A stretch of 64,000 bases of DNA from positions 1,054,001-1,118,000 of the forward strand of contig NZ_CP097635.1 of NCBI RefSeq assembly GCF_023573145.1. The letters run 5' to 3'. Source of the DNA: Aquincola tertiaricarbonis (lineage in GTDB: Bacteria; Pseudomonadota; Gammaproteobacteria; Burkholderiales; Burkholderiaceae_C). A program made the position numbers and the translations under genes. Shown here piece by piece: positions 4,216 to 34,993 of the stretch (positions are counted from its first letter, which is position 1; each line of letters starts with the position of its first letter). Below the pieces are notes generated by a model that was not told the DNA's origin, searched no databases, and saw nothing but the letters and a program-made list of their open reading frames with translations.

Positions 4216-5160
4216 TCAACGGCGGTGCTCCGATGGGCGATCCCGCAGGCCCTTCTCAATGGAACGCTGCGGCGAGAGTCGAGGAACGGCGAAGCGAGGT
4301 CTCCCCTCCATAAAGTTGGCAAGATCACGTGCGAGGTTGCGATCTAGCGAATTTTTTGACCGGACAAGCACTTGCCCGATACGCGCCCAAGCTTGACGAG
4401 CTGAGAAGTGGGAAGGAGCAATGGCGATCGGGCGTCGAATTACCTCCCGCCGCAGCCGTTGCTGGTCCCGGGCCTGTCGCTGCCATAACGCCTCATCGCG
4501 GCCTTGCACGCCGCGCGTTGCAGCAGGTGTAGCCTCCGCCTCGATGCCCCAGCCGCGCAACCTTTCCGCGAAAGTCTCTCGCCAACGCTGGAGATCGGCC
4601 TTACGGGGGTTCAGCCGGTGCCCATGGTTTGACTCTGCCCGCACGCTGAGGTGCACGTGAGGATTCGCTTGGTGGTCGTGCAGCACCATGACGTACTTGT
4701 GATCTGCCAGCTCTAAGTGTGCGAACTCGCGGGTCGCGCGCTGCACAATAGACGGGTCGGTGCCACGCGGCATGGACAGCATGATGTTGTAGGCCTCGCG
4801 CCGCGTAGTGTGTTCCTCGATCGGGCTACCACCCCAGCGCCACTCGTCCACCAGCAGGTCGAGCTCTTCCCGACCCTGCACCACGTCACCGCGTTCATCC
4901 TCGATCGGCAGCCGGCCGTGTTTGCTGATGTAGTGGAAATGCGCCGTGATGGCGCACATACCTCGGCCGCCTCCGGTGACCTTGACCATCACCTGAGGGG
5001 CGCGGCGCTGCACCAGCGCGGCGATGCGCTCGCGCAGGGCAGCGGCCCGTTGAGCAGGCGAGCCGCGCAGGCGGGGCGCTGCGTTGGGCACCCGTCGATT
5101 GCCCGGATAGAACAGCCGCTCGCCCCAGTGCAGCAAGGCGGCATCGGTGGATAGCGTCAT
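4216..5160 (-). CDS. Relaxase / mobilisation nuclease
   Basis: 314 residues. The three-histidine metal motif of relaxases is present as HDHQANPHVHL (about residue 155), preceded by KYVMVL. An upstream conserved block KVTGGGRGMCAITAHFHYIS includes the region around the usual catalytic residues. The enzyme would nick oriT and lead strand transfer of a mobilisable element. The protein is short, with only a brief basic tail after the nuclease domain and no helicase or primase domain, so it would need a helper conjugation system. It is the second gene of a two-gene unit: its ATG overlaps the stop of the MobC-like gene (ATGA). Confidence 0.8.
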   Translation of the reverse strand: MTLSTDAALLHWGERLFYPGNRRVPNAAPRLRGSPAQRAAALRERIAALVQRRAPQVMVKVTGGGRGMCAITAHFHYISKHGRLPIEDERGDVVQGREELDLLVDEWRWGGSPIEEHTTRREAYNIMLSMPRGTDPSIVQRATREFAHLELADHKYVMVLHDHQANPHVHLSVRAESNHGHRLNPRKADLQRWRETFAERLRGWGIEAEATPAATRGVQGRDEALWQRQARDQQRLRREVIRRPIAIAPSHFSARQAWARIGQVLVRSKNSLDRNLARDLANFMEGRPRFAVPRLSPQRSIEKGLRDRPSEHRR

Positions 5161-5729
5161 GGCGCGCTCCGAGCGACGCGGCGGCCGTGTGTCCGCTGCA
5201 TCGGCGCATGCTCCACCGGCGGGCAGTTCATCGCCAGCGATGCTGCAGAAACGAGGAGCGCTCGCAATTCGCCGAGACCCTGCCTGAGGACCTCTGCTTC
5301 CGAAGACGTCGGATCGACGCGGCCCTGCAAGCTCAGTCGCTGCAGGCCTCTGCGTAACGCCGCCAGTTCAGCCGTCAGGGCTACCAATGCCCTGCGCTGA
5401 GCGTCGAGCTGCTCCGCAGTCGCATCGACAGCGCCGCCAGCGGCCACGCGTGCCAACCAGCGACCGGGCCGTTGGCCAGCAAGCTCAGCCGACGACAGCA
5501 CCGCCCTCACCCCGTCAGGATGCATGCGTAAGCACAAGCGCTGCGACCTGAGCCGTACGGCGGGCTCTCTTGCCTGGGCGTCTACAGCGCCCTGCGTCCC
5601 CAGCGAAGCAATAAGCACCCGTCGTACGAACTGCGACGGCATGACGCCTTCGGCCTCGGCGCGCGCCATCAGCGCACCCTTCAAGCCCTGCAAATCGACC
5701 GTGATGCGGTCCCGAGGTGAGGTGTACAT
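5157..5729 (-). CDS. MobC/TraJ-like relaxosome accessory protein
   Basis: 190 residues from the ATG at 5729, which has AAGGAGG six bases upstream. The N-terminal part reads DRITVDLQGLKGALMARAEA then MPSQFVRRVLIASLG, which fits a ribbon-helix-helix DNA-binding domain, and a second half carries a helical segment from about residue 105. Proteins of this kind bind near oriT and help the relaxase. Cotranscription and overlap with the relaxase support this. The exact family name is inferred from context. Confidence 0.6.
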   Translation of the reverse strand: MYTSPRDRITVDLQGLKGALMARAEAEGVMPSQFVRRVLIASLGTQGAVDAQAREPAVRLRSQRLCLRMHPDGVRAVLSSAELAGQRPGRWLARVAAGGAVDATAEQLDAQRRALVALTAELAALRRGLQRLSLQGRVDPTSSEAEVLRQGLGELRALLVSAASLAMNCPPVEHAPMQRTHGRRVARSAP

Positions 5730-5879
5730 ACGAGCCTCCTTCAGGACAAGCGCCAGCTTGTCCGACAAACGGCGCCACCGCGCCTATCCTGCACTAACCA
5801 CTGTCTGCAGTTTGGCGAATTGGACAGCGATCCACAGCGCTGGATTGCGGCGCTTTTCAGCGTCGGATTGACGCAGAAC

Positions 5880-7732: not shown

Positions 7733-8614
7733 TCACGCCTTGAGCTTGCGCATCTCCTCAGCCAGCAACCACAGCGCCCGGTTCAGGCTCACGTTGCGGT
7801 CGATGTTGTTGACCGGTCGGGTGTGCAGCCGCCGGCCCTTGGGGCCTCGGCCGAGCTGGCCGCCGCGGATGACGTTCTCCTGCACCCGCTGGAAGGTGTC
7901 CCACAGGCTGTGGCCCAGGTCCTGCGGCCGGCGTGCTTCGATCAGTTGCTCGGCGGTGACCGGGGCGGCGGTGCGCCCTCCAAAGTCCGGCACGATGTTC
8001 TCACCGAAGCGCAGCGCCAGGGCAGCTGTCGCAAAGGCACGTTCTTCCTGCGGCTGCAGGGGCAGTGCCTTCATCGCCTCGGTGTGCTCGCCGACCGCCT
8101 GGAAGCCCTCCAGCACCCGGAAGGCGCCTTCGATGACCCGGTCCTGCACCGGGCCCTTGTGCGGGATGCGCAGGTCTTCGACCACATCGCCGACGACCAG
8201 GCCGTTGGCGCAGACGTAGCGGAAGAGCCCCGCCAGCATCTGGTAGGCGCTGGCGCCGTCGTGGCTGTTGATGAGGATGATCTCCTGTGCTTCGTCCTGC
8301 TGGTTGGGCTCGCCATGGCGCAGGCGGATCAGGTGCTTGGTGTAGTCGGCCTTGCCGGCGATGCGGCTCATGCCTTGGGCGACCATCACCGGGCGGAAGT
8401 TCTCCTTCTGCAGGCCACGCAGGACGTCGATGGTCGGGATGTAGCTGTAACGCTCGGACCGGCTGGCGTGTTTGCCGGGGGCGAAGATGGAAGGCGCGAC
8501 CTGGCGCATCTGGTCTTCGGCGAGGCCACTGTCCTGGCGCAGGACCCGGGTGCCGTAGGCGAACCGGGTGGCCAGGCTGGGGCGGGTGCCGACTTGGGGG
8601 TGGAAGGTGTTCAT
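7733..8614 (-). CDS. DUF932 domain protein (plasmid/ICE backbone)
   Basis: 293 residues. The DUF932 signature includes RYSYIPTIDVLRGLQKENF near residue 58, a RHG(x)PN segment, INSHDGASAYQMLAGLFRYV near 112 and VCANGLVVGD. These proteins are common on plasmids, ICEs and phages, often next to an SSB gene as here, and their biochemical role is unsettled. The gene is followed by an SSB gene upstream on the same strand with an 11-base gap, so they form one operon. Confidence 0.75.
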   Translation of the reverse strand: MNTFHPQVGTRPSLATRFAYGTRVLRQDSGLAEDQMRQVAPSIFAPGKHASRSERYSYIPTIDVLRGLQKENFRPVMVAQGMSRIAGKADYTKHLIRLRHGEPNQQDEAQEIILINSHDGASAYQMLAGLFRYVCANGLVVGDVVEDLRIPHKGPVQDRVIEGAFRVLEGFQAVGEHTEAMKALPLQPQEERAFATAALALRFGENIVPDFGGRTAAPVTAEQLIEARRPQDLGHSLWDTFQRVQENVIRGGQLGRGPKGRRLHTRPVNNIDRNVSLNRALWLLAEEMRKLKA

Positions 8615-8625
8615 GGTGGTCTCCT

Positions 8626-9033
8626 TCAGCGGGCAGCGGCTTGGGCTCGGTCGAGCTCGGCGACAAACGTGTTTCGTTCGCGGCGGGCGTCGGCTTCGGC
8701 CTTGGTGTCGAGGAAGTCGATCTCGTCGGCGGTGAAGACGAAGGTGTGCACGGTGCGGCCGTCCTCGGCGGTGTTGCGGTGGTTGTGCAGGTGGCCGACG
8801 ACGTTGACGTGGCTGCCGCGGCCGAGGTATTTGGCGGCGTGGTCCGCCAAGGCGCCCCAGAGGGTCCAGCGGATGGCCACCGGCGGGTCTTTCTGGTCGG
8901 TCTTGCTGCGGCGACGCTGGCTGAGGGCGGTGAAGGTGGCGCGGGCGCGTGGGCCGTCGGTTGTGGGGATCTGGTCGAGCAGCACCGGGCCGGCGAGGTG
9001 GGCATGGCGCTGGGTGATCTGGACGGGGGACAT
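8626..9033 (-). CDS. Single-stranded DNA-binding-like protein (OB-fold)
   Basis: 135 residues from the ATG at 9033, with AGGAG eight bases upstream. The order of strands is typical of an OB fold: ARATFTALSQRR, PPVAIRWTLWGALADHAAKY, GSHVNVVGHLHNHRNTAEDG and VHTFVFTADEIDFLDTKAEA. It lacks the acidic C-terminal tip of host SSB, ending RAQAAAR, as do many mobile-element SSBs. It would protect single strands during transfer or replication of the element. Cotranscribed with the DUF932 gene. Confidence 0.7.
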   Translation of the reverse strand: MSPVQITQRHAHLAGPVLLDQIPTTDGPRARATFTALSQRRRSKTDQKDPPVAIRWTLWGALADHAAKYLGRGSHVNVVGHLHNHRNTAEDGRTVHTFVFTADEIDFLDTKAEADARRERNTFVAELDRAQAAAR

Positions 9034-9861
9034 GGCAAGGCTCCTGGGCAGTGAAGGCATCGCCGGCCGCCCGGGGTGGGTGGCCTTAGGGAAGCTGATC
9101 CCTTCATTCGGACCTTCCTCGCTCCCGCCCACGGGCGGGCGGGGGGTGGGCACGGCCCCTTCCCCGGGCGAAGGGGTGGGGGATGGGCGAAGGCTTGACA
9201 GCAGCCGAAGCGGTGCGCCGGTCACCCGGCCCACCGTATGCAGATCCCCCCACAAGTCCCCCCTCGCCAGAGATCGGGGGGGACTTGTGGGGGGAGCCGG
9301 TGGGCCGACAGGCGCGATGGCTGCATGGACCTCAGAGGGTCCGAGCGCCCGCGGCCGATGTGCCAGCTCGCCTGGCGCAGCGGCTGCCGGCGGGACGTAC
9401 CCGCCCCACGCCTTGAGCCCCGGCGGCGCCGCGGCCGGCGTGCCACCAAGCGAAGTGCAACGCAGCGACTGGCGCGACGGACGAGCCGGGGCGATCAGAC
9501 CCTCCACCGCGGCCTGGCGTCGGGCATGGCGGGTGAACGGGGTGGCGTGCTGGCCGGCGCAGCCGGTCAGGACGACAAGCGGGCGGCATTCACGCGCAGC
9601 AGGAAGGCGACAAAGCCCGCGATCCCTGGGCACGGGAACAGGCCGCGGTCGTCAGGACACCGGTAAAGCCGGCTTACCACGTCGGCACGGCGAATAAGCG
9701 AACGAGGCGAACCAGGAGCCGACCTGCGGTGCTTAGGCCAACAGGTCACCAACAAAGTCGGCGCACCCCTCGGACGCCGCGCACAAGACCGGACGTTTGC
9801 GAACTCTCGCTTTCGACCCCAAGCGGACATCCTGCCGTCCGCCTCGGAGGTCCGCTGTGCA
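9034..9861. other. Very GC-rich gap with a large hairpin, no gene seen
   Basis: The region has long apparent open frames on both strands, but these reflect GC bias and have no family resemblance. It contains the 18-bp inverted repeat at 9246-9294 and several C- and G-rich runs around 9120-9200. It could hold a replication origin or simply be eroded element DNA. Confidence 0.35.
9246..9294. repeat. 18-bp perfect inverted repeat
   Basis: CCCCCCACAAGTCCCCCC (9246-9263) pairs with GGGGGGACTTGTGGGGGG (9277-9294) across a 13-base loop. There is no T-run beside it, so it is unlikely to be a standard terminator. It sits upstream of the SSB gene in the backbone of the mobile element. Confidence 0.7.
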
Positions 9862-10032
9862 GTGATTGCGGTCCCCGAGCGGCCACGCGTCGATGTCGGC
9901 TATCAGCCAGGAAGCGAGCATCTGTTGCGCTGGATCAAGCAAGCTGAACTGAGATCCGAGGACTTCCTGTTCCCGAGTCGCATGCACGGCTCGCCGCATC
10001 TGGGAACGCGGCAGTACGCCCGAAGTCCCTAA
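9862..10032 (+). pseudogene. Tyrosine recombinase fragment
   Basis: The frame ending with TAA at 10030-10032 reads LRWIKQAELRSEDFLFPSRM then HGSPHLGTRQYAR, a stretch typical of a phage-type integrase just before the catalytic HxxR box. The catalytic C-terminus is absent, since the similarity stops at about 10025. It marks a former recombinase gene and an old insertion edge just upstream of the GHKL gene. Confidence 0.55.
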
Positions 10033-10220
10033 ACTCCAGGCCCATCACGTCCTGCTTCAAGATCCGATTCAACATCGCCTTCGACGGGTTCCAGTTCCTG
10101 AAGTGAGCTGCAAGCGTGAGCGGATGACGCACGCGAGTGATCGCCCTTGTGGATGCAGCTCCGACAGCAGGCCATCTTACTCGCCAAGCGCAGGCCCGGC
10201 CATCTAACCAGAGACATAGC

Positions 10221-12212
10221 ATGGTGATTCGACAGATTTCAGGGAAGACGGAGATCAATGGAGAGGGGATCAAGAAGCATTTTCGGACCACCGATCCTTG
10301 GCGTGCGATCGCCGAACTCGCCTGGAACGGGTTTGACGCCAAGGCCCCCAACGTCAACATTCTGGTTGACGAGGGGCAGATGGGTGGCGCCACTCGTGTC
10401 GAGGTCTCTGATGATGGGGAAGGCATCGAACTCGAGAAGCACGCCGAGACCTTTGGGCGCTTCAACGACTCGAGCAAAAAGGAGGACGTGACGACACACG
10501 GTTCGCACGGGCGCGGCCGACTGTCCTTCCATCGGCTCGCCGAGCGTGCCGTCTGGTGGACTATTGCTGCAGGATCGGGGCCCGCACGCATCGAAGTGAA
10601 CGGCGCGGCGCTCACGAACTACGAGGGCAGGTCCGTCGAGCCGGCAGCACTGCCCGCAGGGATGGCTGCCCTGAAGACCGGAACGACCGCGGAGCTGGTC
10701 AACCTGCATGCAGATCTGCCGACAGCTGGCGAACTTCACAGGCTGCTGTCCACCGAGTTCGGCTGGTTCCTCGCACTGAATCCCGCAAAGAGACTCCGCC
10801 TGAATGGAACGGAAGTGGCGGTGCCGTCGCACGATCTCATCCAGCGTGAGGTCAAGGTCGATGGGCATGACTTCGACGTGTCGGTGCTTCGCTGGGACCT
10901 GAAGCCGGGCTCCGAGAAGTCCTACGTCTACGTGTTGAATTCCTCCGGCAAGACGGTGGACAAGCGGCTCAGCACGTTCAATCACAAGGGGAACTTCCAC
11001 ACAAGCATCTACGTGGGCTCGAAATGGGTGGACGATTTCGAGCTCGGCGGCGCTGATCTGGCCAGCCCTGACGCGACTGGCTACGAGTCGGATACCTGGC
11101 GGAAGTTGGCGCGCGAGCTCAACAAGATCACCAAGTCGGTGTACGAGGACTTCCTTCGGGAGCAGTTCGAACGGGAGATCGAGGGCTATGTCGCCGACGG
11201 TGTCTTTCCTTCGTACGTGGGCCTGTCCCAGGACTACAAGCAGTGGAGGTTTGAAAACACCAAGAGCATCCTGCGCGCGATCTACACCGCCGATCCGACC
11301 GCGTTGAAGTCGCTCAAGAGGAATCAGAAGAAGATCATCGTGCGGCTTTTGGACAAGCTGGCGGTCTCAAACGAGAACGACGCGATCTTCGAGGTACTCA
11401 ACAGCGTGCTGGAGCTTGATGACGTCTCGACCAAGCTACTCGCCAAGCAGCTCAGGAGCGTCTCACTGCAGAGTATCGTGTCGGCGATCGAAGTCCTACG
11501 CCGTCGTCATGAGGTGGCCGACAAGTTGCGGACGCTGATGAACGATCACTACCTGGATACCTTGGAGACGCCTGATCTGCAACGGATAATCGAAGCCAAC
11601 ACTTGGCTGTTCGGCAGCTCCTACGAAACACTTGGCGCAGAGGAAGATACATTCACCAAGATCGCCAAGTCGCTTCGCGACGCAGTGAAGGGCATCCACG
11701 ACATCTCTCTGGAAGACTTGGACGACGACCAGCCCTCAGCCATCGAGGGCGCGAACAAGCAGACAGACCTGTTCCTGGCTCGCAAGGTGCCCCATCACGA
11801 CTCGATGGGCCGCAGGATCTATCGTTGCATCGTGGTCGAGATCAAGCGCCCGAGCATCGCTCTGAACTACAAGCATCTCCAGCAGTTGGACGGTTATGCC
11901 CAGCTCATCAAGAAGCACGCGGAGTTCGGCAGCGAGGTGATGCACTTTGAACTGATTCTGATCGGGCGCAAGATTTCGGAGGCTGACACCGAGATTCGCA
12001 GCCGCATGGAAGGGCAGGTCGCGAAGGGTCTTCCGGGTCTCGTCAGCGACGACGCGCGCATGAAGCGCTTCGTCCTCAACTGGTACACCTTGCTCGACAA
12101 CTTCATGCTGACGAACCAGGCCATGATCGAGGCACTGCGGCTGAAGCGCGATTCGTTCGAAGGTGTGCCGCGCCCGGAACTGATCGCCGACATGCAGAAG
12201 AAGGCCGCCTAG
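10221..12212 (+). CDS. GHKL ATPase fused to a Shedu-like (DUF4263) PD-(D/E)XK nuclease
   Basis: 663 residues from the ATG at 10221. The N-terminal third has all GHKL (Hsp90/MutL/MORC) boxes: ExxxN as E32-LAW-N36, DDGEGI with the DxGxG of residues 64-68, and GSHGRGRLSF with the second glycine box at 94-99. The middle is helical. The C-terminal 210 residues carry EANTWLFGSSYETLG (about 458), QTDLFLAR (about 513), VVEIKRP (about 538) and LQQLDGYAQL, the pattern of DUF4263 nucleases such as Shedu SduA. It is therefore likely a single-protein, ATP-dependent antiphage nuclease. No clear ribosome-binding site is seen. It stands alone, convergent with the CoiA-like gene, and appears intact, unlike most neighbours. 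The combination is read from the sequence; the defence role is inferred. Confidence 0.75.
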   Translation: MVIRQISGKTEINGEGIKKHFRTTDPWRAIAELAWNGFDAKAPNVNILVDEGQMGGATRVEVSDDGEGIELEKHAETFGRFNDSSKKEDVTTHGSHGRGRLSFHRLAERAVWWTIAAGSGPARIEVNGAALTNYEGRSVEPAALPAGMAALKTGTTAELVNLHADLPTAGELHRLLSTEFGWFLALNPAKRLRLNGTEVAVPSHDLIQREVKVDGHDFDVSVLRWDLKPGSEKSYVYVLNSSGKTVDKRLSTFNHKGNFHTSIYVGSKWVDDFELGGADLASPDATGYESDTWRKLARELNKITKSVYEDFLREQFEREIEGYVADGVFPSYVGLSQDYKQWRFENTKSILRAIYTADPTALKSLKRNQKKIIVRLLDKLAVSNENDAIFEVLNSVLELDDVSTKLLAKQLRSVSLQSIVSAIEVLRRRHEVADKLRTLMNDHYLDTLETPDLQRIIEANTWLFGSSYETLGAEEDTFTKIAKSLRDAVKGIHDISLEDLDDDQPSAIEGANKQTDLFLARKVPHHDSMGRRIYRCIVVEIKRPSIALNYKHLQQLDGYAQLIKKHAEFGSEVMHFELILIGRKISEADTEIRSRMEGQVAKGLPGLVSDDARMKRFVLNWYTLLDNFMLTNQAMIEALRLKRDSFEGVPRPELIADMQKKAA

Positions 12213-12676
12213 CGGAGCGAGTGATTCGCGTCATGCCTAATGACCGTCAGGTCGCTGGGCTGTCGTCATCGAACTCCTCTGGGAACCAAGCTCGGGCCCA
12301 TTCGGGGTTGGCTCGCTTCCACGCTTCCAGGTCGCGTCCCTTGAGCCTCACATCGCCGGGCCGGGTGTCCAGCAGCCGCTGGCCGTTCTGTCGTGCGCGA
12401 GGCTGGTTGGCGATGAACTTGGCCGGCCTCCTCTCGGGCGTTTCGGGCCGGACAAAGATGCCACGCTTCGGATCGAGGATCAGTTCATAGACGGTTTCCA
12501 GCTTGCCGCCTTTCTTCGCTAGGCCGGGCGCCATCTCGGGGAACAGGAGCGCGAGCAGCCGGTCGTACGACGGATCGCGGAGGTAGATCCTTTCACGTCG
12601 CCGAAGGCTTGCGCGCACGTCGCCGGCCCAGCCGTCAAACCAACGCTGCTGATCCGCATCGAAACCGGGCGGATAG

Positions 12677-13861
12677 GGAAGGTCTGCACAACGCGATGCG
12701 ATGCGCCCGTCGAGCCGATTCGATGATCGTCAAGCGCCGTCTGGCTGCACCGAGGCGATTCGCGGCGTCTTCGAGGCCCCGGTTGGGCCTGCTGCAGCGC
12801 TCCGCAGGCCCCTGCAAGGCACCGCGGACGCACTCATCCCTGCGCTCCGATCAGCTGCCGCCTCGCCATCCACAGGTTTGACAGCGCGAAGAGCGTGGCG
12901 ATCTGCGCCGTGTTCTTGGCCAATCCTCGGTAGCGAACCTTTGTGTAGCCGAACTGCCGCTTGATTACCCGGAACGGATGCTCGACCTTGGCCCGGATGC
13001 TTGCCTTCCACTTCTCCAGGCTCAGCGCCTCGAAGTGCGGCGCGATGAACGGGTTGAGCTTGCGCCGCAACCCTGGCCGCATGGCCACGTGCCACTGCGG
13101 CCCCTGGGCTTCGATGCGCTTGTGCACGCCTTGGTAGCCCGCGTCTCCAAAGGCGACCTCCTCGTCACCGTGCAGCAGTGCGCCGGCCTGCGTCACGTCG
13201 TTGACGCTGGCGGCCGTGCCCACGACGCTGTGCACCAAGCCGGAGTGCGCGTCCACGCCGATGTGGGCCTTCATGCCGAAGTACCACTGGTTGCCCTTCT
13301 TGGCCTGCTTCATCTCGGGGTCCCGCTCGCCCTCGGCGTTCTTGGTCGAACTCGGCGCGGCGATCAAGGTGGCGTCGACGACGGTGCCCTTCTTCATCAT
13401 CAGGCCCTTGGCCTGGAGGATGTCGTTGACCACCCGCAGCATGTCGGTGGCCAAATCGTGCTTCTCCAGCAGGTGCCGAAACCTCAGGATGGTGGTCTCG
13501 TCGGGCAATCGCTCGACACCTTCGCCCAAACGAGCGAACTCACGGAAGACGGGCATGTCGTGCAGCGCCTCTTCCATCGCCGGGTCGGACAGCGCGAACC
13601 ATTGCTGCAGGTAGTGAACTCGCAGCATGGTCTCGATGGGAAACGGCGGCCGTCCGGTCTTGGCCTTGGGGTAGTACGGCTCCACCACCTGCATCAGCGC
13701 CGACCACGGCACCACGCGTTCCATCTCTTCGAGGAACTCGCGCTTTCGGGTCTTCTTCGTCGACAGGTTCAGGCCAAGTCCGAGCTGCTTCATGAGCGTG
13801 ATCATCCCTGGCGCAGGGCGGTCAGGCTATTCGGATCGGCACGTAGTTGTGCAGACCTTCC
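12677..13861 (-). mobile_element. IS5-family insertion sequence, complete
   Basis: 1185 bp. Both ends carry GGAAGGTCTGCACAAC as a perfect 16-bp inverted repeat (12677-12692 and 13846-13861). A 4-bp target duplication ATAG flanks it (12673-12676 and 13862-13865). The host reading frame is restored when the element and one ATAG are removed. It encodes one full-length transposase, so it is probably still mobile. Confidence 0.88.
12834..13793 (-). CDS. IS5-family transposase
   Basis: 319 residues from the second methionine (MKQLGLGLNLSTKKTRKREF); a start at 13805 is also open. Family blocks include PYYPKAKTGRPPFPIETMLR near the N-terminus. The DDE residues are expected in KKGTVVDATLIAAP (D), VAFGDAGYQGVHKR (D) and KVEHPFRVIKRQFGY (E). 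Length and motifs are typical of an intact enzyme. It is the only gene of the element at 12677-13861. Confidence 0.92.
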   Translation of the reverse strand: MKQLGLGLNLSTKKTRKREFLEEMERVVPWSALMQVVEPYYPKAKTGRPPFPIETMLRVHYLQQWFALSDPAMEEALHDMPVFREFARLGEGVERLPDETTILRFRHLLEKHDLATDMLRVVNDILQAKGLMMKKGTVVDATLIAAPSSTKNAEGERDPEMKQAKKGNQWYFGMKAHIGVDAHSGLVHSVVGTAASVNDVTQAGALLHGDEEVAFGDAGYQGVHKRIEAQGPQWHVAMRPGLRRKLNPFIAPHFEALSLEKWKASIRAKVEHPFRVIKRQFGYTKVRYRGLAKNTAQIATLFALSNLWMARRQLIGAQG

Positions 13862-15396
13862 ATAGGCGTTGACGGCAATGAGGTACAGGGAAAACTCACT
13901 CTGCCGAGCGCCCTGGGTACTCCGAATTTCGTCAAGGACGTCTGTGAGGTGCTCGTGCCCGTAGCCAACCGATCGGTTCCAGCGGATGGACAGGAGGCGC
14001 GCCAGGATGCCATCGTGCTCGAGGAGGTTTTCATCGCCGGCCTCGGGGAATCCACGCAACGCGAGCTTCTCGACAGCGTCCGCAAGGGCCTCCCGCGCAG
14101 TTGGCGCTTCGATCGGATTGCCCGTAGCTATCTGCAACGCCCTAACGGCATGGAGGTAGTCCGCCGCGATCGTCGTGAGTGGCGTCGCCCGGACCTGCGC
14201 TTCGCGCTCGGCAGTCAGTCTGGCGCGTTCCGCGATGTCCTCACGCTCCCTGCGCACGCGCCCCAGCAAGCCCTTGTAGAGCTGGTTCTGCATCGGCAGC
14301 TCGTCAGGGTGGAAAAGCCAGCGCTTAGGTGCGACTTCGTCGACCACAAACTGGCGGAACTCCTTGCGATTCACCCGCGACCGCCCGCGCGGCTGAGATC
14401 GATTGCCAACGTCGCCTCGTGGTTCTCACAGATCCGTTCCAGGCGCTCTTCATCAATGACGTTGGTGACCGTTACCTCGATCAGCAACGGGAGGTAGCGC
14501 GCGTGCTCGTCGTCGAACACCTCGCACGTCACGTCGGGGATCAGCCGGCCGTATCGTTGTTCGAGCCGGACGCAGTTGAGACGCAAGTCTTCCTCGTCCA
14601 GCAGCAGCACTCTCTCACCGTCCCACCGTCTACGCCCGGGCAAGAGGCTTCGACCCGGAGTTCCGGGACCGTGAGACGACCCTCCTGCTCCAGGATCCGC
14701 TTAACCTCGTAATGGAGCACCGTCTCACGGAGCAGCGCCGGGTCGAGGTCCGGCGGCAATTCCAGCCAGCTTGGCACGTCGTCGAAGTAGAAATGGGCCG
14801 CCTCACGCGCGGCAAGTTCGGCCTGAGCGCGAAGCTGTGCGTCGTTCAGTGGCTATGCCAGAAAACCCCGGTCGGCACCAGCTGCGCGCGCTCCCGCAAC
14901 TCGGCAGGGTCCATGCTGGCGAGCTCAGGGGCATTGGGAACGAGAAAGATCGTTGGCGGCCCAACGCCGTCGGACTGCCCGGCTTGGCCAGGGCTGCCCG
15001 TGAGATCCACAAGGAACTGTCGACCGTCATCGAGCCTCACCACGGCGGCTGCCCGGTCCGGGTAGTCCACTTCGCTGATGCGCATCCGCTGCGGCGGGGC
15101 CTCGACCCAGGCATCGTGGTACTGGCCGCTGAGGCCCATGACCTGGGCCGTCACTCGACATTTTGGCAGGTCAATCCAGCCGGCGTCCTGCAGTTGCCTC
15201 AGGACGGCGACTCGCGCGGTGAGCACCATGCAATCGTCGCGTTGGGTTCCCTCGGGATGGCGGAAGTGCGGCCTCCGCACGAATTCGGCCTTCCCCGCAT
15301 TCCTGGCGATCAAGGGGAGACCACAACTGGAGCACTCGCAACCGCAGTGAACCGCCCCGGGTATGAACTGACCCTCAGAAGTTGGACGGTTGGACG

Positions 15397-16206
15397 CTAG
15401 GCGTTCACGGCCCGCAGCCGGTACTGCACCGGGCTCGACCCGTTGAGCTTGAGCCTGATGCGCTGATGGTTGTAGTAGCGAATGTAGCGGCGTAGACCGG
15501 ACTTCAACGCTGCGATGTCAACGAATTTGTTGAGGTAGAAGAACTCCGACTTGAGGGTTGCGAAGAAGCTCTCCATGGCCGCGTTGTCCAGGCAATTGCC
15601 CTTGCGAGACATGCTTTGCGTCAGCCCGTGTGCGCTGAGTTGTTTGCGGTACGCGGGCATCTGATAGTGCCAGCCCTGATCGGAGTGCAGAAGCGGGGCT
15701 GCTCCGCGGCCGTGCAGCTTCGCCAGTGCCTTCTTGAGCATGTTCCCGACAAGAGAGTACAGAGGCCGCTCCTGCATCTCGAAGGTCACGATTTCGCCGT
15801 TGTAGAGGTCCATCACCGGTGACAGATAGAGCTTGGCGCCGCGGACGTTGAATTCGGTCACGTCCGTCACCCACCTCTCATTCGGCCGTGCTGCGCTGAA
15901 CTGCCGAGCAAGCAAGTTCGGCGATGGGGCCAACTCTCCCTGGTAGGAGCGATATCGCTTCGGCCGGACCAGCGACTTCAGGCCGAGGCTGTTCATCAGT
16001 CGCTGCACAGTCTTGTGATTCACCGCCTGGCCTCCCTGACGCAGTTCGCATGTGATGCGCCGATAGCCGTAGCGGCCCTTGTGGCGCTCATAGGCGGTCT
16101 TGATGCGCGACTTCAAGCCTGCGTGCTTGTCGCCGGCCTCCAAGACCTTGGCCTGGTAGTAGAACGTGCTCCGCGACAGGCCTGATGCCGCCAGCAGCAC
16201 CTGCAA
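15397..16206 (-). CDS. IS3-family transposase OrfB (rve integrase core)
   Basis: 269 residues as an independent frame. It contains the helical region with GRYGYRRITCELR and the integrase core with DDE residues expected in NERWVTDVTEF (D), LLHSDQGWHYQMPAYR (D) and CLDNAAMESFFATLKSEFFY (E). It is normally made as an OrfAB fusion by -1 frameshifting: a run of seven A residues (minus strand, 16287-16293, CTAAAAAAATTGG) near the end of orfA is a suitable slippery site. Ends with the family tail SSPVQYRLRAV. Confidence 0.88.
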   Translation of the reverse strand: MQVLLAASGLSRSTFYYQAKVLEAGDKHAGLKSRIKTAYERHKGRYGYRRITCELRQGGQAVNHKTVQRLMNSLGLKSLVRPKRYRSYQGELAPSPNLLARQFSAARPNERWVTDVTEFNVRGAKLYLSPVMDLYNGEIVTFEMQERPLYSLVGNMLKKALAKLHGRGAAPLLHSDQGWHYQMPAYRKQLSAHGLTQSMSRKGNCLDNAAMESFFATLKSEFFYLNKFVDIAALKSGLRRYIRYYNHQRIRLKLNGSSPVQYRLRAVNA

Positions 16207-16220
16207 CGGGTAGTCTGGCC

Positions 16221-16748
16221 TCAGCTCGAGGACGGCTTGCGCTCTTTGTGAGCGGGTTGCCGATTGCCCCGAACCAAGGCCTCCAATTTTTTTAGGTAGG
16301 CGACCTCCGCACGCAGCCGTTCAACCTCCTCAAGAAGCGCGCGGTTTGAGCTGGCACTATCGGGGTCGGGTGGCTCTGAGCTGGGCTTGCCGGGCTTCAT
16401 AAGGGGCGTTCGCCGTTTGCCTTCAAGTGCCCCGACGCCACCGCCATCAAGCGCTCGTCGCCAGACGACAACCTGGTTTGGATTGCGAATATCGTAGATC
16501 GCCGCGACCTGCCGGCTTGAGAGCTGCTCACGATCTTGATGCCTCAGCACCTGGAGCTTGAATTCAGTGGTGTAGGCGCCGCGCTTGGGCTGCAGGGCGG
16601 CCACTCCGTGTAGCCGGTAGTGGCTGACCCACGTACGGACCTTCTCCTCCGGCACTGACCATCGCCGGGCAAGCAGCTTCGCACCGCCGTCCCCAGCCAG
16701 AAAGCTCTCGACGACCTTGAGCTTGAGCCTTGTTTCGTACTTCCCCAT
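16221..16748 (-). CDS. IS3-family transposase OrfA (helix-turn-helix)
   Basis: 175 residues from the ATG at 16748. Two helix-turn-helix segments are visible (LARRWSVPEEKVRTWVSHYR, then SSRQVAAIYDIRNPNQVVVW), followed by a leucine-zipper-like stretch LLEEVERLRAEVAYLKKLEA that mediates multimerisation. The A7 slippery run for OrfAB synthesis falls in the codons for YLKKLEA. The protein binds the terminal inverted repeats. Confidence 0.88.
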   Translation of the reverse strand: MGKYETRLKLKVVESFLAGDGGAKLLARRWSVPEEKVRTWVSHYRLHGVAALQPKRGAYTTEFKLQVLRHQDREQLSSRQVAAIYDIRNPNQVVVWRRALDGGGVGALEGKRRTPLMKPGKPSSEPPDPDSASSNRALLEEVERLRAEVAYLKKLEALVRGNRQPAHKERKPSSS

Positions 16749-17004
16749 GGGACCTCTTGAACTGTGTCCAACTTCTGGGGGTCAGTTCAAAAGCGGGGCG
16801 GTTCACAGTGCGCGCCGCGCTGACTTGGCGTCAACTTAAGGATGTAGCGGGGCTGACCAGTAGCGAAATCCCGCGCCCAGGCCATGACCAGGTCAGCGAG
16901 TGCCTGGCTAGCGCCTTCGCGCCCGGTGAGTAACACCGGAGCAGGCCCGCCCATAGGCAGCCCTTCACGGCCATATCGGCCCTGACGATGATGGACAGCG
17001 CCAT

Positions 17005-17351
17005 GGATCTCCCTCCAGACCGGCACGCCGATTAGTCGAATCCCTGAGGTGCGCGCGGGCTCGCTGAAGAGCAGTTTACGGCGGCGCTGCCCTGGGGGTT
17101 GTCAGCATGTTCAGTGAGCGAGGTAAGCTCTTGCGACTGCCTGGACGCAGGGCTCGATGCCCGGTGCTGGCGGTTGCTGCCGTCCGCGGACTGAAACGCG
17201 AATGTCTCAGATCAACCTGAAGCCGAAGGCCGCTCAACGGCAGCCTACTGGTGGCCTTAAGGCAATCCGGCTTCAAGTTCCCCGCCGGCACAGGCCCCAA
17301 CGGGTACCCTTCACTCATCGATCGGGTCACTTCCACGTACGCCCGCCCGAA
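17005..17351. other. Gap without a recognised gene
   Basis: It holds the upstream region of the CoiA-like gene and the 3' flank of the membrane protein gene at 17352. Short frames on either strand have no recognisable features. Confidence 0.35.
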
Positions 17352-18206
17352 TCAGCGCCTCTTGTCATCGTCTGGGCGGATGCCCTTGAGCGAATCGGGC
17401 GATTCGGTTGCCACGGTGGTCATGACCGGCGCGGCGGCTGCTCTCTTGAGCACCGCCTTGCCCGCGTCGCTCGCCAACTCGCCGACCCGTGAAGCCCCGG
17501 CCTTGATCGCCTCGCCCGCGGCGCTTGCGCTGCCGGCCACCACATCCCCCACCTTGCCCGCAGCGTCCTTGATCGCCGCGGCGGCCTGTCCGGTCCGTTG
17601 CGCGATCAGTTCCGCGCTGTCAGACGCGAAGTCCCCGACCTGGCGGGTCATGTCATACAGCGAGCGGCCGAACGCCTCGGCGAAATCCTTGATGAACTTC
17701 TTCGACGCCTCGGCCTGCTTGGAATCGAGCAGCTCGCCGAACTTGCGGACCGAGAATTCGACGATGGAGCGGATCAACTCCAGCCCGAGCGTCAGGCCAG
17801 AGGCCAGCCGTTCGAGAATCTGCTCGCGCTCCTTGTCCGTCAGGGCGGTGCATCCGAAGTAGATCGCGCCCACCGCGCCACAGGTCATCGCGATGGGATT
17901 AGAAAGAACTGCCGCGGAGCCAACGGCTGCGACGGCGGCGAACGTGTTGCCGAGCAGCATCTGGCCAGCGGCGATCAGCACGGTCGAGGCGATATAGCCT
18001 AGCCCGAAACCGAACTTGGCTGCCTCCAGGACACGCCCGGTGCACGCGATCACCGGCCGGTCCGATGCCTTCAGCGCCTCGATGTGACGGTCGAGCCAAT
18101 CGTTGAGGTCACCGGCCACCTGATAGATCAGCTTGATGCCCTGGACGATCTTGCTGGTGGCGAAGCCTGCCACTTCAACGCCTGCCATCGCTGTGTGGAT
18201 CGCCAT
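17352..18206 (-). CDS. Hypothetical membrane protein with amphipathic helical repeats
   Basis: 284 residues. A hydrophobic block from about residue 68 to 122 (FGFGLGYIASTVLIAAGQML, then AAVAAVGSAAVLSNPIAMTC) suggests two or three membrane-inserted helices. After TDKEREQILERLA comes a long helix, and residues 205-265 form alanine/glycine-rich amphipathic repeats (AAIKDAAGKVGDVVAG, AAGEAIKAGASRVGELASDA). This could be a pore-forming or membrane-binding protein. It is divergent from the nuclease-like gene at 18481 with a 274-base gap. I do not recognise the family. Confidence 0.5.
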   Translation of the reverse strand: MAIHTAMAGVEVAGFATSKIVQGIKLIYQVAGDLNDWLDRHIEALKASDRPVIACTGRVLEAAKFGFGLGYIASTVLIAAGQMLLGNTFAAVAAVGSAAVLSNPIAMTCGAVGAIYFGCTALTDKEREQILERLASGLTLGLELIRSIVEFSVRKFGELLDSKQAEASKKFIKDFAEAFGRSLYDMTRQVGDFASDSAELIAQRTGQAAAAIKDAAGKVGDVVAGSASAAGEAIKAGASRVGELASDAGKAVLKRAAAAPVMTTVATESPDSLKGIRPDDDKRR

Positions 18207-18480
18207 GTTCTTTCCCCAAAGTTCGGCTTGGCGACAAGCTGTCGCCTGCGGTTTGATGAATCGCAGGCACGATAGCCCAACGCCCTGGTGTTTCCAAGCG
18301 GACGCCGCGGGCCGATGCCAAGGATGGGCAGCACGCGACCAGCGAGGCGTTCCGCGGAGGAGTTGGCTATGCCGAACGCTCGCATCGCGAAGCCGCTTTG
18401 ATGGAAACTCCAGCTTTCGGTTGGCACCCCGGATCGGGCATCAAGTTGACCTGCGGACGCCTTCCTGGAGCAAGGAACCG

Positions 18481-19077
18481 ATGAGCGACTGGGACTTCCT
18501 GCATGACAGGCGCGACGCGGGATCGAGCGCCGAGGACATCGCCCATGCGGCGGCGGTCGGCTATTCACCTGAGGAAGAGGTGTACCTCAGCAGGCAATGG
18601 GTCGAGTCCAAGCTCGAGGGTCAGGCACCTGACGCTGCAAACTTTCTGCGTCCCAAGGAGATGTTCCTAAGCAGGGAGGGGTTTCCGTACTCCGTCCTGC
18701 AGCAGGCCGAGATCTTCGAGGACTTGGTCGAATGCGCGGCGCGCCACTTCGACAACACCGGTCGGTATTTGCAGATTTGGGGCGAGCTCGGGGAGATCTA
18801 TGCCGAGATCAAGTATGGCCTTCGCCGCCATGCCACTCATCAGGCCGGCTCCGACGGCACGATTGCCGGCAGGCGGGTCGAGGTAAAGACAATCTCTCCG
18901 GAGAAGAGCGGTGACCACGTGCTCGTCAAGCGTGCCGGGGACTTCGAGCAGTTACTCATCGTTCGGATCGACGAAGACTTCCAGTTCGCCGGAAAGCTGC
19001 TAGAACGCAGCGAGCTGTCGAGCGGCGGCCGCCATTTCCTCAAGGGTCGGATGCAGGGCGGCGGCAGGACGTCCTGA
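18481..19077 (+). CDS. PD-(D/E)XK-like hypothetical protein
   Basis: 198 residues from the ATG at 18481, with AAGGA four bases upstream. The middle reads GELGEIYAEIKYGL (about residue 100), then GSDGTIAG (about 122) and RRVEVKTISPEKSGDH (about 131), spaced like the E, D and ExK residues of a PD-(D/E)XK nuclease fold. DFEQLLIVRIDEDFQF follows, a strand typical of such folds. It may be a nuclease or a degenerate DNA-binding relative. The neighbour on the other strand is an unrelated membrane protein; a functional link is only speculation. Confidence 0.5.
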   Translation: MSDWDFLHDRRDAGSSAEDIAHAAAVGYSPEEEVYLSRQWVESKLEGQAPDAANFLRPKEMFLSREGFPYSVLQQAEIFEDLVECAARHFDNTGRYLQIWGELGEIYAEIKYGLRRHATHQAGSDGTIAGRRVEVKTISPEKSGDHVLVKRAGDFEQLLIVRIDEDFQFAGKLLERSELSSGGRHFLKGRMQGGGRTS

Positions 19078-19575
19078 ACCGTCGCCGAACCAGCGTTTCA
19101 TTCCTGTGCCGCAACTGACCGACGAACGACCAGTTTGTCGGCCCGAAGCGGTAGTTGCAGGTCGAGCGGCTGCTTGGGCCGGAAGCGGCCAACACTCGGA
19201 TGTTGACGATCGCCTCGAACTGACCCTGCGGGGGTGCAAGACGGGTCGCGCGGAACTGCCCCGCTTCCGTGACATCGACGACATCTACACGAACAGAAGA
19301 ACCCCACCGCCGATTGCTCAGGCAACCAGCAAGTTGATGGCACGATAGGTCAGACCGTGGTTGGCACAGCCCGCGCCGGACGAGGCACTTCTAGTGCGTG
19401 TATGCGATTGGGCGCCGACCAGCAGAACCCATCAGGGCCAGCGAGCTCGTCTCGCATCGAAAGTCCGAATGTACGGGTGCAATCTTTTCTTCGTGCAGAA
19501 GTGAGCTGGTAGCTTGGCAAGCTCGGGGGCGTCCATGTACGTCCGGCCAACCCATCTTGACGATGGACGCAGAGC
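19078..19575. other. Gap between nuclease-like gene and IS66 remnant
   Basis: No frame with family resemblance was found on either strand. Part of the right half may be the 3' noncoding end of the IS66-type element, but no terminal repeat could be paired. Confidence 0.35.
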
Positions 19576-21546: not shown

Positions 21547-22549
21547 CGGCCCCGACACCTTAAACGTTGCCTAACTCGGCATCTTCCATATCCCGCTGCA
21601 CCACCTCCCTGATTGCCGCCATGTCACTTGGCGTCAGTCCGAAGTGAGCTGCCAGCGCGTCGTCGATGTCGGTCACCGGCGAAAGGTCGATGCTTCCAGC
21701 ATCGCGGCTCGCGATAATTATGTCCACCGCCTTCTCGACTCGCGCCACCAGTTTGGATTCGGCGTTCGGAACGGGCAGGACTCGCAGATGCGGTGCCTGG
21801 AACGGTAGGTAGCCGCCCGACATTGCGAGACCGCCGAAGAAGAGGCGATGGACGAAGGCCGCGACGTCAGAGTGCAAGTAGCCGACGAGGAACTTCAGCG
21901 TGTAGTCACCCGCTGGCCCGTAGATGCAATTCACATCCAGCCCGCCAAACTTTCCCTCACCGTCAAGGAATGCTTCGCACCGGTGAGCAATCTTCGCGAC
22001 GATGATTTTGGGCGAGCGAAATAGCGCCAAACGGTTACCAAGCGTCTCCGCATTCAGCGGCAACACGGGGTGCAAAAATTTCGCCCCCTGCTTGGTCAAG
22101 GCCTTCTGTCCCCATAGGCTCTCGAACGGGTCGATGGTTCCGGTATTGATGACTCGACAGGCACCCCTTGCCGAGTCACGCAGCTGCGTGCCGAAGGCGT
22201 CCGCCTCTCCCGCAGTCGTCATCGCGTTGACGTTCGCGACGTCTCTTAGCCAGCGGCTCTTGCTCGACACCTTCTCGAGGACGCTGCGGTGCTCTGACAA
22301 GAGCACGCCCCAGATTCGATTGGGCAGCGCATCAAGCCAACGCGAGTCAGCTGCGGGAAGCTCCGACATGACGATGTCGTCTGACGTCGTCTTGCTGCGG
22401 CCATGCATCACGTTGACCACACGCCCCTGCTCGACACCTCGCTCAAGCACTGTGACAACAGGGTAGACCGATGCCTCTTTGAACACCTTCACGTTGCTCT
22501 GAACCGCCCCGGGATTCGAGGAGGCTCAACACTCTGAGAGGATTGAGCC

Positions 22550-22873
22550 ATGAGCAAGTCGAACAAGTTCTCGCCCGAGGTGCGTGAGCGCGCGGTGAGG
22601 ATGGTGCAGGAGCACCGAGGGGAGTACCCGTCGCTGTGGGCGGCCATCGAGTCCATCGCGCCCAAGATTGGCTGCGTGCCGCAGACGCTGAACGAATGGG
22701 TCAAGCGCGCCGAGGTCGATGCCGGCGTGCGAGAAGGCGTGACGACCAGCGAGGCCGAGCGCGTGAAGGAGCTCGAGCGCGAGGTGCGTGAACTGCGCAA
22801 GGCCAACGAGATCCTGAAGCTGGCCAGCGCGTTTTTCGCCCAGGCGGAGCTCGACCGCCGCCTCAAGTCCTGA
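22550..22873 (+). CDS. IS3-family transposase OrfA
   Basis: 107 residues. N-terminal helix-turn-helix ([20 protein letters not shown] then [20 protein letters not shown]) and a leucine-zipper-like segment [20 protein letters not shown] typical of IS3 OrfA. The end [13 protein letters not shown] overlaps the likely frameshift site for OrfAB (TTTTTCG at about 22829). It binds the element ends. Confidence 0.92.
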
Positions 22874-22929
22874 AGGCCTTCGTCGACCGGCATCGCCAGG
22901 AGTTCGGGGTCGAGTCGATCTGCCGCGTC

Positions 22930-23775
22930 TTGCAGATCGCCCCGTCGGCCTATTGGCGCCATGCATCCCGTCAGCGCAACCCGGCGCTGCGCTCGCGTCG
23001 CGCACAGCGGGATGCGTGCCTGGTGCTTGAGGTCCAGCGCGTGTGGCAGGCCAACATGCAGGTCTACGGCGCTGACAAGGTCTGGCGCCAGCTCAAACGC
23101 GAGGGCGTGGCGGTGGCCCGTTGCACCGTCGAACGGTTGATGCGTCAGCAAGGCCTGCAGGGCGTGCGCCGAGGCAAGGCCGTGCGCACCACCGTTCCGG
23201 ACCTCAAGGCACCGTGCCCGCTGGACCGGGTCAACCGGCAGTTCCGTGCCGAGCGGCCCAACCAGCTGTGGGTCTCGGACTTCACCTACGTGTCGACCTG
23301 GCAGGGCTGGGTCTATGTGGCGTTCGTGGTGGACGTGTTCAGCCGGCGCATCGTGGGCTGGCGCCAGAGCAGCTCGATGCACACCGAGTTCGTGCTCGAC
23401 GCGCTGGAGCAGGCGCTGTACGACCGCAAGCCGACCGAAGGTGATGGCCTCGTGCACCACTCGGACCGCGGGTCGCAGTACCTGTCCATCCGCTACAGCG
23501 AGCGCTTGGCCGAGGCCGGCATTGAGCCCTCAGTGGGGTCCAAGGGCGACAGCTACGACAACGCCCTGGCCGAGACCATCAACGGGCTCTACAAGGCCGA
23601 GGTCATCCACCGGAGGGGGCCCTGGAAGACCAAGCAAGCGGTGGAACTGGCGACGCTGGAATGGGTGGCTTGGTTCAACCACCATCGACTGATGGAGCCC
23701 ATGGGCTACATCCCGCCGGCCGAGTTCGAGGCCAACTACCATCGACAACGCGCTGGTCAGGCCGCGACCGTCTGA
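22930..23775 (+). CDS. IS3-family transposase OrfB (rve integrase core)
   Basis: 281 residues as an independent frame; in life it is probably expressed as an OrfAB fusion in which the sequence [20 protein letters not shown] upstream is included. The DDE core residues fall in [16 protein letters not shown] (D), [20 protein letters not shown] (D) and [19 protein letters not shown] (E). The family tail [20 protein letters not shown] is complete. Likely active. Confidence 0.92.
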
Positions 23776-26166
23776 CTTAAACCAACGGGCCTCCGCGATA
23801 CCCGGGGCGGTTCACTCAGGTCGACGACCAAGGACAGCTTCATCCTTTCTCGGATGAGGTCCCTGAGCGCCTGCGCGTAGTCGACCGACAGATACTTGTT
23901 CGGGCTGATGAAGGTCAGAACACCGCCATCCACCAACTGGTTGCAGGCGAGCTCGAAGAAGCACACGTAGACGTCGAAGGCCCCTTTGGCCGAGGCATAG
24001 GTTTCCTTCAAGGCCTTCCGCGCCTCTTCCCCGTAGACCTTGCCGTGGTCGATGGCGCTGATGTAGGGTGGATTCGCGATGACGATGTCGAACTGGCGGT
24101 CCTCGTAGAACAGCCATGGAAAGTAGTCTCTGTCGTCGCCGTCCTCGGCACTCGTCAACCTGTCGATGCGACGCCGAGTCATGTCTAGCTGCGCCTTCAC
24201 CCTGGCCGACTTTGGCATCTTCTCGAGGTCTTGCGTGACGTGTCGGAGCACGTTTAGTACAAAGGCCTTCTCAGCAGCATCAATCTCTCTCGCCAGCTCA
24301 GCTTTGGGCTCGCCATGCATGGTGAAGTGAGAAGCAATAAGTTCCCGTATACGACGCTGCTCGCGAGCGTACGCCGAAGCTCGCCCTGACGTCTCGACCA
24401 GTCCAAGCTCGGCTTGCGGGTCTGAGTCGTTGGCCATCGACACGCCAGGGAGGTGGCGCTGAGCCCACTCGCGATGCCCGCCAACCAGGTCAACCAACGA
24501 GTCCCCCTGCAGGAACCGAAACTCCAAATTTGGCAACGGCTCTGGCGTGGTGGCATCGACAATTATCGACAGCCAGAAACGCAATCGCGCAATCTCGACA
24601 GCATTCTTGTCCAGGTCAACGCCACACAGGTTGTCCTGAATGATGGACTTCTTCAGAGCACCGAGTTCTTTCTCCTTCACCGGACGCAGGCTGTACCGAA
24701 GCCAGAAAATCTCGTTGAGCATTCCCATCGGGAACGCGCCTGACCCGACAGCCGGGTCGCACACTCGAACTGAAGTGAGTGCCTCAGCAATGTCTGCGGC
24801 GTGCTTCTTAACCCAGTTCTTGTCGTCGTTCCAGTTTCCAACGTCATGGGAGCGGACAAGGCGCTCTAGCTCCTGGCGCTCGCCAAGTCGCCGGCTCAGG
24901 TAACGAAGGACGCTCTCCTTGCACATGAACTCCACGACAGCCTTGGGCGTGTAAAAGGTGCCCCTCTCGCGGTTGTCTTCGAGCAGGTTTTCGAAGATAT
25001 GACCGAGCATCTCCGGATCCACGCCGACCTCCCCTTCGTCTGGCGAGTTCTCGTCTACAGTAAAGTTGAACTCGTCCAAGAAGTCGAAGAAGGCCATGAG
25101 GACCTGCTCATCCAACTCCAGTTGCTTGTGCTGCTCAATAGGGCTCATGCGAGCTCTGCGGCGGAGGCCTTCAGGCTCGAATAGCCCGCTGTTCAAGTAC
25201 GGCACACGCCGCCTAGACAACGAGCAAACATCACCTCGAGCCGAGCGGTCGGTGTTCAGCACTTCAAAGAAGAGGGGCGCCAGCGCTCCGCTGTATGCAT
25301 TAGCGCCGCCCCTCGCCGCGATAACATTTCTGACGTACCTCTTCTCGCCATCGACGTACTCACCCGGCTTTGCTGACGGGTCCGCGCCGAGCCAACCCTT
25401 TCGCTGAACGAAGTACAGGAACACGATGCGACCCATCATTCGCTTGACGAAGTCGCGCGCTGGCTTGTAGGCGGCCTCGGTCAACATTTCCTCGGCGTCA
25501 AGCGGCGGCTCTAAACCGAAGACGCGCATTGCGGCCTTGGTGGCAAGCGAACGAACGATGTTCTTGTGGTGGGTTCGATATCCGTCGAAGAAGGTCTTGT
25601 TGAGGCGCTCTACCGAGAACGCCTCTCGCACGTCATCAAAGCGCCGCGCGGCCCGCTGCTCGTAGAGGCCAAATAGGCGCTGCGCGGCCGTCGTGCCAGG
25701 CTCGCCAGGCCCTACGACGAACGAATAACGCTTCGGCGGAGTCTCGGACTTCACAACACGGCCGCCGTCCAACGCCCACTCTGCCGCCGCAAAGGTAACG
25801 CGATAGTCGGCTCCGTCGGCGCCGACGAAGAAGGCCAACACCGCCTCGACTTGCCCGGCGCTGAAAAGTTTCGAGAGACCTTGACGAAGGGTGACTCGAG
25901 CCTGAAGACGATTGGGGTTCCGCAGGCGCAGTTCGGCAACCCACATCACCCGTTCGACACCATCGTCCCCAAGAAGTCGAACGCGCCCTAGCCAGTGGGA
26001 CGCCTCGAACTCGGTGGCCCAGTCGGCCGTCGGCACTTCGACAGGGGTCGGCTTTGCACCCAGCTCTACCGACTGAAACAGGCCAGGTAGCAATACGCGG
26101 AGCCATTCGTCTCGCGTGTAAGACGTTCGGAGTTGGTCCCGAAGTGCACCGACGGACGCGAACGGG

Positions 26167-34858: not shown

Positions 34859-34935
34859 TGGTGCGGCTGGCAGGATTCGAACCCACGACCCCTTGGTTCG
34901 TAGCCAAGTACTCTATCCAACTGAGCTACAGCCGC
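34859..34935 (-). tRNA. tRNA-Arg (anticodon ACG)
   Basis: 77 bases including an encoded CCA. The minus strand starts GCGGCTGTAGCTCAGTTGGA, has the anticodon loop CTTGGCTACGAACCAAG with anticodon ACG, the T arm GGGTTCGAATCC and ends GCCGCACCA. All four arms pair. The 3' end faces the integrase gene, so it is the probable attachment site of the accessory element. Confidence 0.95.
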
Positions 34936-34993
34936 TGAAGCCTCACAGTATAGCGAGCATTTTTCGCTGCGGTCAATACCTGAGTAAATTACT

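Follow-up and report, generated by a model that had tools for sequence, protein, structure and literature searches.

A probable one-gene GHKL-Shedu defence nuclease in Aquincola tertiaricarbonis

Can a single protein that joins a GHKL ATPase to a nuclease guard a bacterium against invading DNA without any partner gene? This question is raised by a gene at 10221..12212 on the forward strand of a 64,000-nucleotide stretch of Aquincola tertiaricarbonis DNA (contig NZ_CP097635.1, positions 1,054,001 to 1,118,000; the whole stretch is called the window here). The genome of 7.1 Mb contains one copy of it (E 0.001). A sequence-only reading had proposed the gene as a single-gene anti-phage candidate, and our analysis supports this candidacy. 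The protein has an intact ATPase, transducer and nuclease with conserved catalytic residues, and the gene is inherited alone, evolves under purifying selection, is patchily distributed and has homologues close to defence genes. These last four properties, all read from sequence, favour a role in defence. We consider it probable that the gene encodes a one-gene anti-phage (or anti-mobile-DNA) GHKL-Shedu nuclease, i.e., a paraMORC3 protein or, in the wording of PMC12137116, a Shedu protein of type I-D.

Domains and conserved residues

As the sequence-only reading had stated, the open reading frame (ORF) is free of stops and encodes an intact protein. An alternative GTG start at 10137 would add 28 residues; we prefer the ATG because homology to relatives begins at or just 5' of it. 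The features of the gene, all on the forward strand, are as follows.

10221..12212, +, GHKL ATPase - Shedu-type nuclease gene, 663 residues, ATG start, intact
10221..10715, +, GHKL (Bergerat) ATPase domain, about residues 1-165
10314..10328, +, GHKL motif I, E32 to N36
10410..10427, +, GHKL motif II DDGEGI, residues 64-69
10500..10517, +, GHKL motif III GSHGRG, residues 94-99
10716..11090, +, S5-like transducer domain, about residues 166-290
11091..11540, +, helical linker, about residues 291-440
11541..12140, +, Shedu-type PD-(D/E)XK nuclease domain, about residues 441-640
11592..11609, +, helix motif E458-A-N-T-W-L
11766..11768, +, D516, the expected metal ligand of a PD-(D/E)XK site, within Q514-T-D516
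11838..11852, +, ExK motif E540-I-K542-R-P
11883..11897, +, Q555-xxx-Y559, which we take to be the motif of RecB-like nucleases

Based on both sequence and model, the N-terminal domain is with certainty a GHKL ATPase. Pfam HATPase_c_3 (PF13589), the hidden Markov model (HMM) proposed earlier as a check, matches residues 26-117 with 52.5 bits, above its curated cut-off of 25, and HATPase_c scores 31.1 bits (cut-off 26.4). An AlphaFold2 model of the full-length protein, built from 50 sequences (predicted local distance difference test 72.5, predicted TM-score 0.50), matches the N-terminal and middle domains of the Hsp90 family over residues 13-315, and over its GHKL and S5-like domains it matches Hsp90, TRAP1, MORC4, MORC2 and GyrB. 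The linker was delimited by the secondary structure of the models, which have low confidence at residues 383-419. By analogy with the GHKL family, E32 is presumably the catalytic base and N36 presumably holds Mg-ATP.

The C-terminal half was left unnamed by direct Pfam, PADLOC and NCBIfam scans of the window protein. Pfam SduA_C (PF14082) found no match in this protein or anywhere in its genome, though the model does score in other genomes. Domain scans of the family covered 50 of 121 proteins; SduA_C matched one of these 50, at E 0.024, and the best E value of the PADLOC SduA models among them was 1.2e-4. Sub-threshold HSDR_N_2 matches, present in 5 of 50 members in one scan and in 7 of 10 proteins in another, point to the same nuclease superfamily. 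To compare profiles, we combined the window's own fragment with 71 of 72 distinct locus fragments, and built a Shedu profile from 14 of 19 SduA_C ORFs, omitting L103, L119 and L121 (short or motif-less) as well as the GHKL fusions L122 and L123; L104-L107 lie outside that set. In a single comparison, hhalign aligned the two profiles with a probability of 95.6 and an E value of 1.2e-8, pairing the E458 helix, D516 and EIKRP with the Shedu profile, whereas the N-terminal half gave a probability of 0.1 and ten shuffled profiles gave at most 0.4. Against the single Shedu proteins L101 and L102 the family's profile scored weakly (0.2 and 32), and the relationship became clear only once the 14-sequence profile was used. 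Among 996 chains compared by VIA-align, the four best rows are Shedu structures (8ps4 and 8ps5 from E. coli, 8ti8 and 8ti9 from B. cereus); Foldseek with the C-terminal model found nothing at E 0.001. Assignment of the C-terminus to the Shedu-type PD-(D/E)XK nucleases is well supported by the profile comparison with its shuffled controls, and the structural support from models is weaker. The DUF4263/Shedu identity claimed from sequence alone is therefore not borne out by direct HMM search but is recovered by profile-profile comparison.

All GHKL boxes and C-terminal motifs named in the sequence-only reading are present. In an alignment of 84 sequences with identity down to 35%, D64, G66, G68, G97, G99, E458, D516, E540, K542, P544, Q555 and Y559 are invariant, and E32, N36 and G94 are identical in 83. 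Such retention shows that the motifs are not due to chance. The sequence that deviates at E32 and N36 is probably L025, which has a non-homologous frame upstream. The GHKL positions, D516, the ExK motif, Q555 and Y559 are likewise identical in all members of a wider set of ten proteins, sorted here into five branches, whereas E458 is replaced by A or Y in L099, L100 and L106. We considered and rejected an alternative N-terminal domain in L025, and read it as a truncated copy because its frame before residue 304 has neither a family match nor a Pfam domain (E 0.001). The Mitsuaria copies L025 and L061 retain a nuclease half, with 81% and 47% identity, respectively, but no intact GHKL half.

Selection had been inferred earlier from intactness. 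The ratio of nonsynonymous to synonymous substitution rates (dN/dS) agrees with purifying selection, with values of 0.092, 0.062 and 0.069 against L006, L007 and L008, respectively. Each of the three domains has few nonsynonymous changes; the L006 comparison rests on about 17 changes only.

Genomic setting and distribution

The closest named relative is Aquincola tertiaricarbonis MIMtkpLc11 (L006), whose gene copy is 99% identical. L006 is collinear with the window at 9811-12677, 13862-15349 and 16806-19191. The gaps are two insertion sequences, at 12678-13861 and 15350-16805, one of DDE_Tnp_1 type and one an IS3-like pair; both lie outside the GHKL-nuclease gene, are absent from L006 and are bordered by short (target) duplications. 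In L007 (82% DNA identity) and L008 (77%), the match to the window spans 10208-12218 and 10209-12208, respectively, i.e., little more than the gene. The rest of these 22-kb loci shares only one 248-base stretch with the window, in L007 (E 1e-10, more than 150 bases).

At E 0.001, the protein family comprises 596 of the 7996 candidates scored. The 91 family loci analysed (L006-L096) include 80 with an intact frame of more than 600 residues, plus L025; the remaining ten (L031, L032, L046, L053, L056, L058, L061, L068, L071, L094) have no such frame, in some cases because the contig ends. The distribution is patchy. Full-length matches occur in 3 of 150 genomes sampled within the taxonomic family, and matches at E 1e-40 in 3 of 399 genomes of the order, the genome itself being included in both counts; one of the matches in the order is 26% identical and has an internal stop.

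Defence genes lie near homologues. We scanned 149 of 170 neighbouring ORFs, from 40 of 45 picked loci, and as a control 108 ORFs from 20 stretches at arbitrary round coordinates in genomes of the same family and class, excluding ORFs above 900 residues in both. At E 1e-20, 100 PADLOC families matched the neighbours and four matched the control (mad3 and RtcR-type regulators), a contrast that is overstated because several models match one protein and the test loci span more proteobacteria than the control. Scanned singly, 6 of 10 neighbouring ORFs were named by PADLOC. The neighbours include PglZ and BrxL (L009), a DRT UG5-nitrilase (L013), MzaE (L017), PtuA (L038) and PDC-S71 (L055), and among the best 25 of the 100 families the DarT and DarG models match two ORFs each. 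A Pfam tally of the neighbours comprises 86 entries. A distant relative with 21% identity, carried by a Psychrobacter plasmid, adjoins a restriction-modification pair and is also near Drt2; a second one, with 28% identity, is separated by 1.5 kb from a methyltransferase on a plasmid of Deinococcus.

Downstream in the window, 21560-29433 (-) holds the remains of a second defence-like cluster:

26167-29433, relative of helicase-related/SNF2 proteins
23757-26237, relative of N-6 DNA methylases
22489-23460, IS3 transposase between the methylase relative and the TaqI_C piece
21560-22492, sub-threshold TaqI_C piece

The methylase relative, about 11 kb downstream of the gene, appears to be broken by the IS3 transposase. 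Together with the two insertion sequences, this makes the earlier description of a lone gene in a decayed island a fair one. The GC content rises from about 0.63 to 0.75 directly after a tRNA-Arg gene (34859-34935), at about 34859-36000, a step that is a possible island edge.

Precedents and competing explanations

The sequence-only reading saw in this combination of domains, as a lone gene, a strong candidate for a single-gene anti-phage system. The combination is indeed present here, but it has been published, as paraMORC3 and as VcSduA; since the GHKL-Shedu kind is already described, the novelty is modest. Word searches of the published literature found no title on this particular GHKL-nuclease branch.

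According to excerpts of Iyer et al. (2008; PMC2292703), paraMORC3 proteins combine GHKL and S5 domains with a C-terminal restriction-fold nuclease bearing E-D-ExK, and a subset is standalone, mainly in proteobacteria and bacteroidetes. The window protein agrees in its GHKL motifs, in the S5 domain that follows the GHKL domain, in E458/D516/E540-x-K542 and in being a standalone proteobacterial gene. In contrast, the discussion excerpted there treats paraMORC3 alongside restriction-modification systems and without a link to Shedu.

VcSduA, from VSP-II WASA of Vibrio cholerae, is described in excerpts of PMC12137116 as a single-gene defence system with a DUF4263 nuclease and a GHKL domain carrying motifs I-IV, is assigned there to Shedu type I-D following Gu et al. 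2025, and loses phage protection by either E27A or K557A. Like the window protein, it is one partnerless gene for a GHKL ATPase, a clamp-like middle and a C-terminal DUF4263 PD-(D/E)XK nuclease. The two differ in that VcSduA has a phage phenotype, whereas the window protein is known from sequence only, and in the E27-K557 spacing, which by published numbering is 530 residues compared with 510 here and 500-517 in all branches seen. All 227 Vibrio genomes gave matches, for the most part owing to the GHKL region of other proteins, with 12 near full length among the matches listed; among these Vibrio relatives, VcSduA was not found by its E27/K557 numbering. Tentatively, the family may form a Shedu branch apart from that of VcSduA, unrecognised by the libraries scanned, whose clamp would sense a feature of invading DNA, such as topology or an end-bound state, other than the one that further Shedu proteins sense.

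Classical Shedu SduA shares the nuclease core, but the 14 SduA_C proteins used have 318-548 residues compared with 663 here. According to excerpts of PMC12904381, the SduA of E. coli forms a homotetramer and binds DNA ends through an N-terminal clamp, and the specificity of Shedu is thought to be set by differing N-terminal domains.

A first competing explanation is that the gene encodes a GHKL-bearing type II restriction enzyme of the HgiDII/BbrUII kind, which would cut a fixed sequence and whose methylase would have been lost or be encoded elsewhere. The proteins grouped under this name (L106 and P0135-P0254) also combine a GHKL domain with an ExK nuclease in about 660 residues, and their full-length profile aligns with that of the window-protein branch (probability 97.5, E 7.8e-12). 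The very distant GHKL-nuclease fusions L106, L122 and L123 score 29.2, 27.5 and 22.3 bits with SduA_C (cut-off 27), so that L106 lies above it, and one of the 120 relatives listed for L106 (P0239) is named 'BbrUII/HgiDII family restriction enzyme'; this suggests a single origin for BbrUII/HgiDII-type enzymes and GHKL-Shedu. M.HgiDII and M.BbrUII, in turn, are listed as 5-methylcytosine methylases in the part of PMC5867850 consulted, the distant relatives L097 and L098 lie near methylases, and in Phaeobacter five matches on plasmids coincide in part with features annotated as ATP-binding protein and type ISP restriction/modification enzyme. However, overall identity to the BbrUII/HgiDII group is about 20%, its GHKL motif III reads GRKGIGK, and L106 is distant from the window protein by BLAST (E 5e-5 for the N-terminal and 0.52 for the C-terminal part). 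No NCBIfam restriction-enzyme model matches the window protein at E up to 10, and what the relatives have in common is the gene alone. C5-methylase matches were seen in no more than 3 of the 91 family loci and never adjacent to the gene, which argues against a restriction enzyme that is paired with a methylase; for methylases of other kinds, the probe was a single partial protein. We therefore regard this explanation as improbable.

As a separate explanation, it is quite improbable that the same enzyme is a weapon of a mobile element, favoured by selection because it keeps rival plasmids or phages out to the benefit of its carrier and not because it protects the host. Copies with 35-45% identity are found on 25 IMG/VR contigs, and distant relatives (21-29% identity) occur on plasmids (30 of 33 records listed); 2 of 50,697 phage records contain a relative (24%). 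A 37%-identical homologue lies within an 8.5 kb stretch that a Providencia locus (L062) and an Alteromonas locus (L063) share with 99.95% identity. Loci of Marinomonas and Psychromonas match it at about 97-98% over 6.0-6.4 kb (group L060, L062, L063, L067), which indicates transfer across orders. In the window itself, mobilisation or plasmid-like genes lie 5' of the gene at 4216-5768 and 7733-9633, with matches to a relaxase, DUF932, a single-stranded DNA-binding protein and, below threshold, a NikA-like protein. L006 does not share this region, its homology to the window starting at 9811. Such a weapon would be compatible with the defence nuclease that we favour rather than opposed to it.

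A MutL-like DNA repair enzyme is very improbable: family members carry source names such as 'DNA mismatch repair protein' beside 'ATP-binding protein', MutL models match the N-terminus and the GHKL fold is shared, but the NCBIfam MutL equivalog scores 28.7 bits against a cut-off of 180, the C-terminus is Shedu-like and presence in so few genomes of the order is unlike the pattern of a repair gene.

Proposed mechanism and meaning

Judging from the fold and from precedent, the favoured one-gene defence nuclease would act as a clamp that ATP closes and that permits a metal-dependent nuclease to work on invading DNA. ATP binding would dimerise the N-terminal domains and shut the clamp on DNA, as GHKL and Shedu work suggests, and the clamp would recognise a feature of the invading DNA, either its ends or a topology or structure that is out of the ordinary. 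The C-terminal nuclease may then be freed by closure or by hydrolysis, and would nick or cut the DNA in the clamp, using a metal bound by D516/E540/K542. In such a scheme, the clamp would replace sequence recognition and a methylase, so that no partner gene would be required.

Naming the family GHKL-Shedu would broaden a one-gene defence type that is already published. It would also provide a set of well-conserved sequences with which to study how a clamp of the MutL/MORC-like type activates a nuclease on foreign DNA only.
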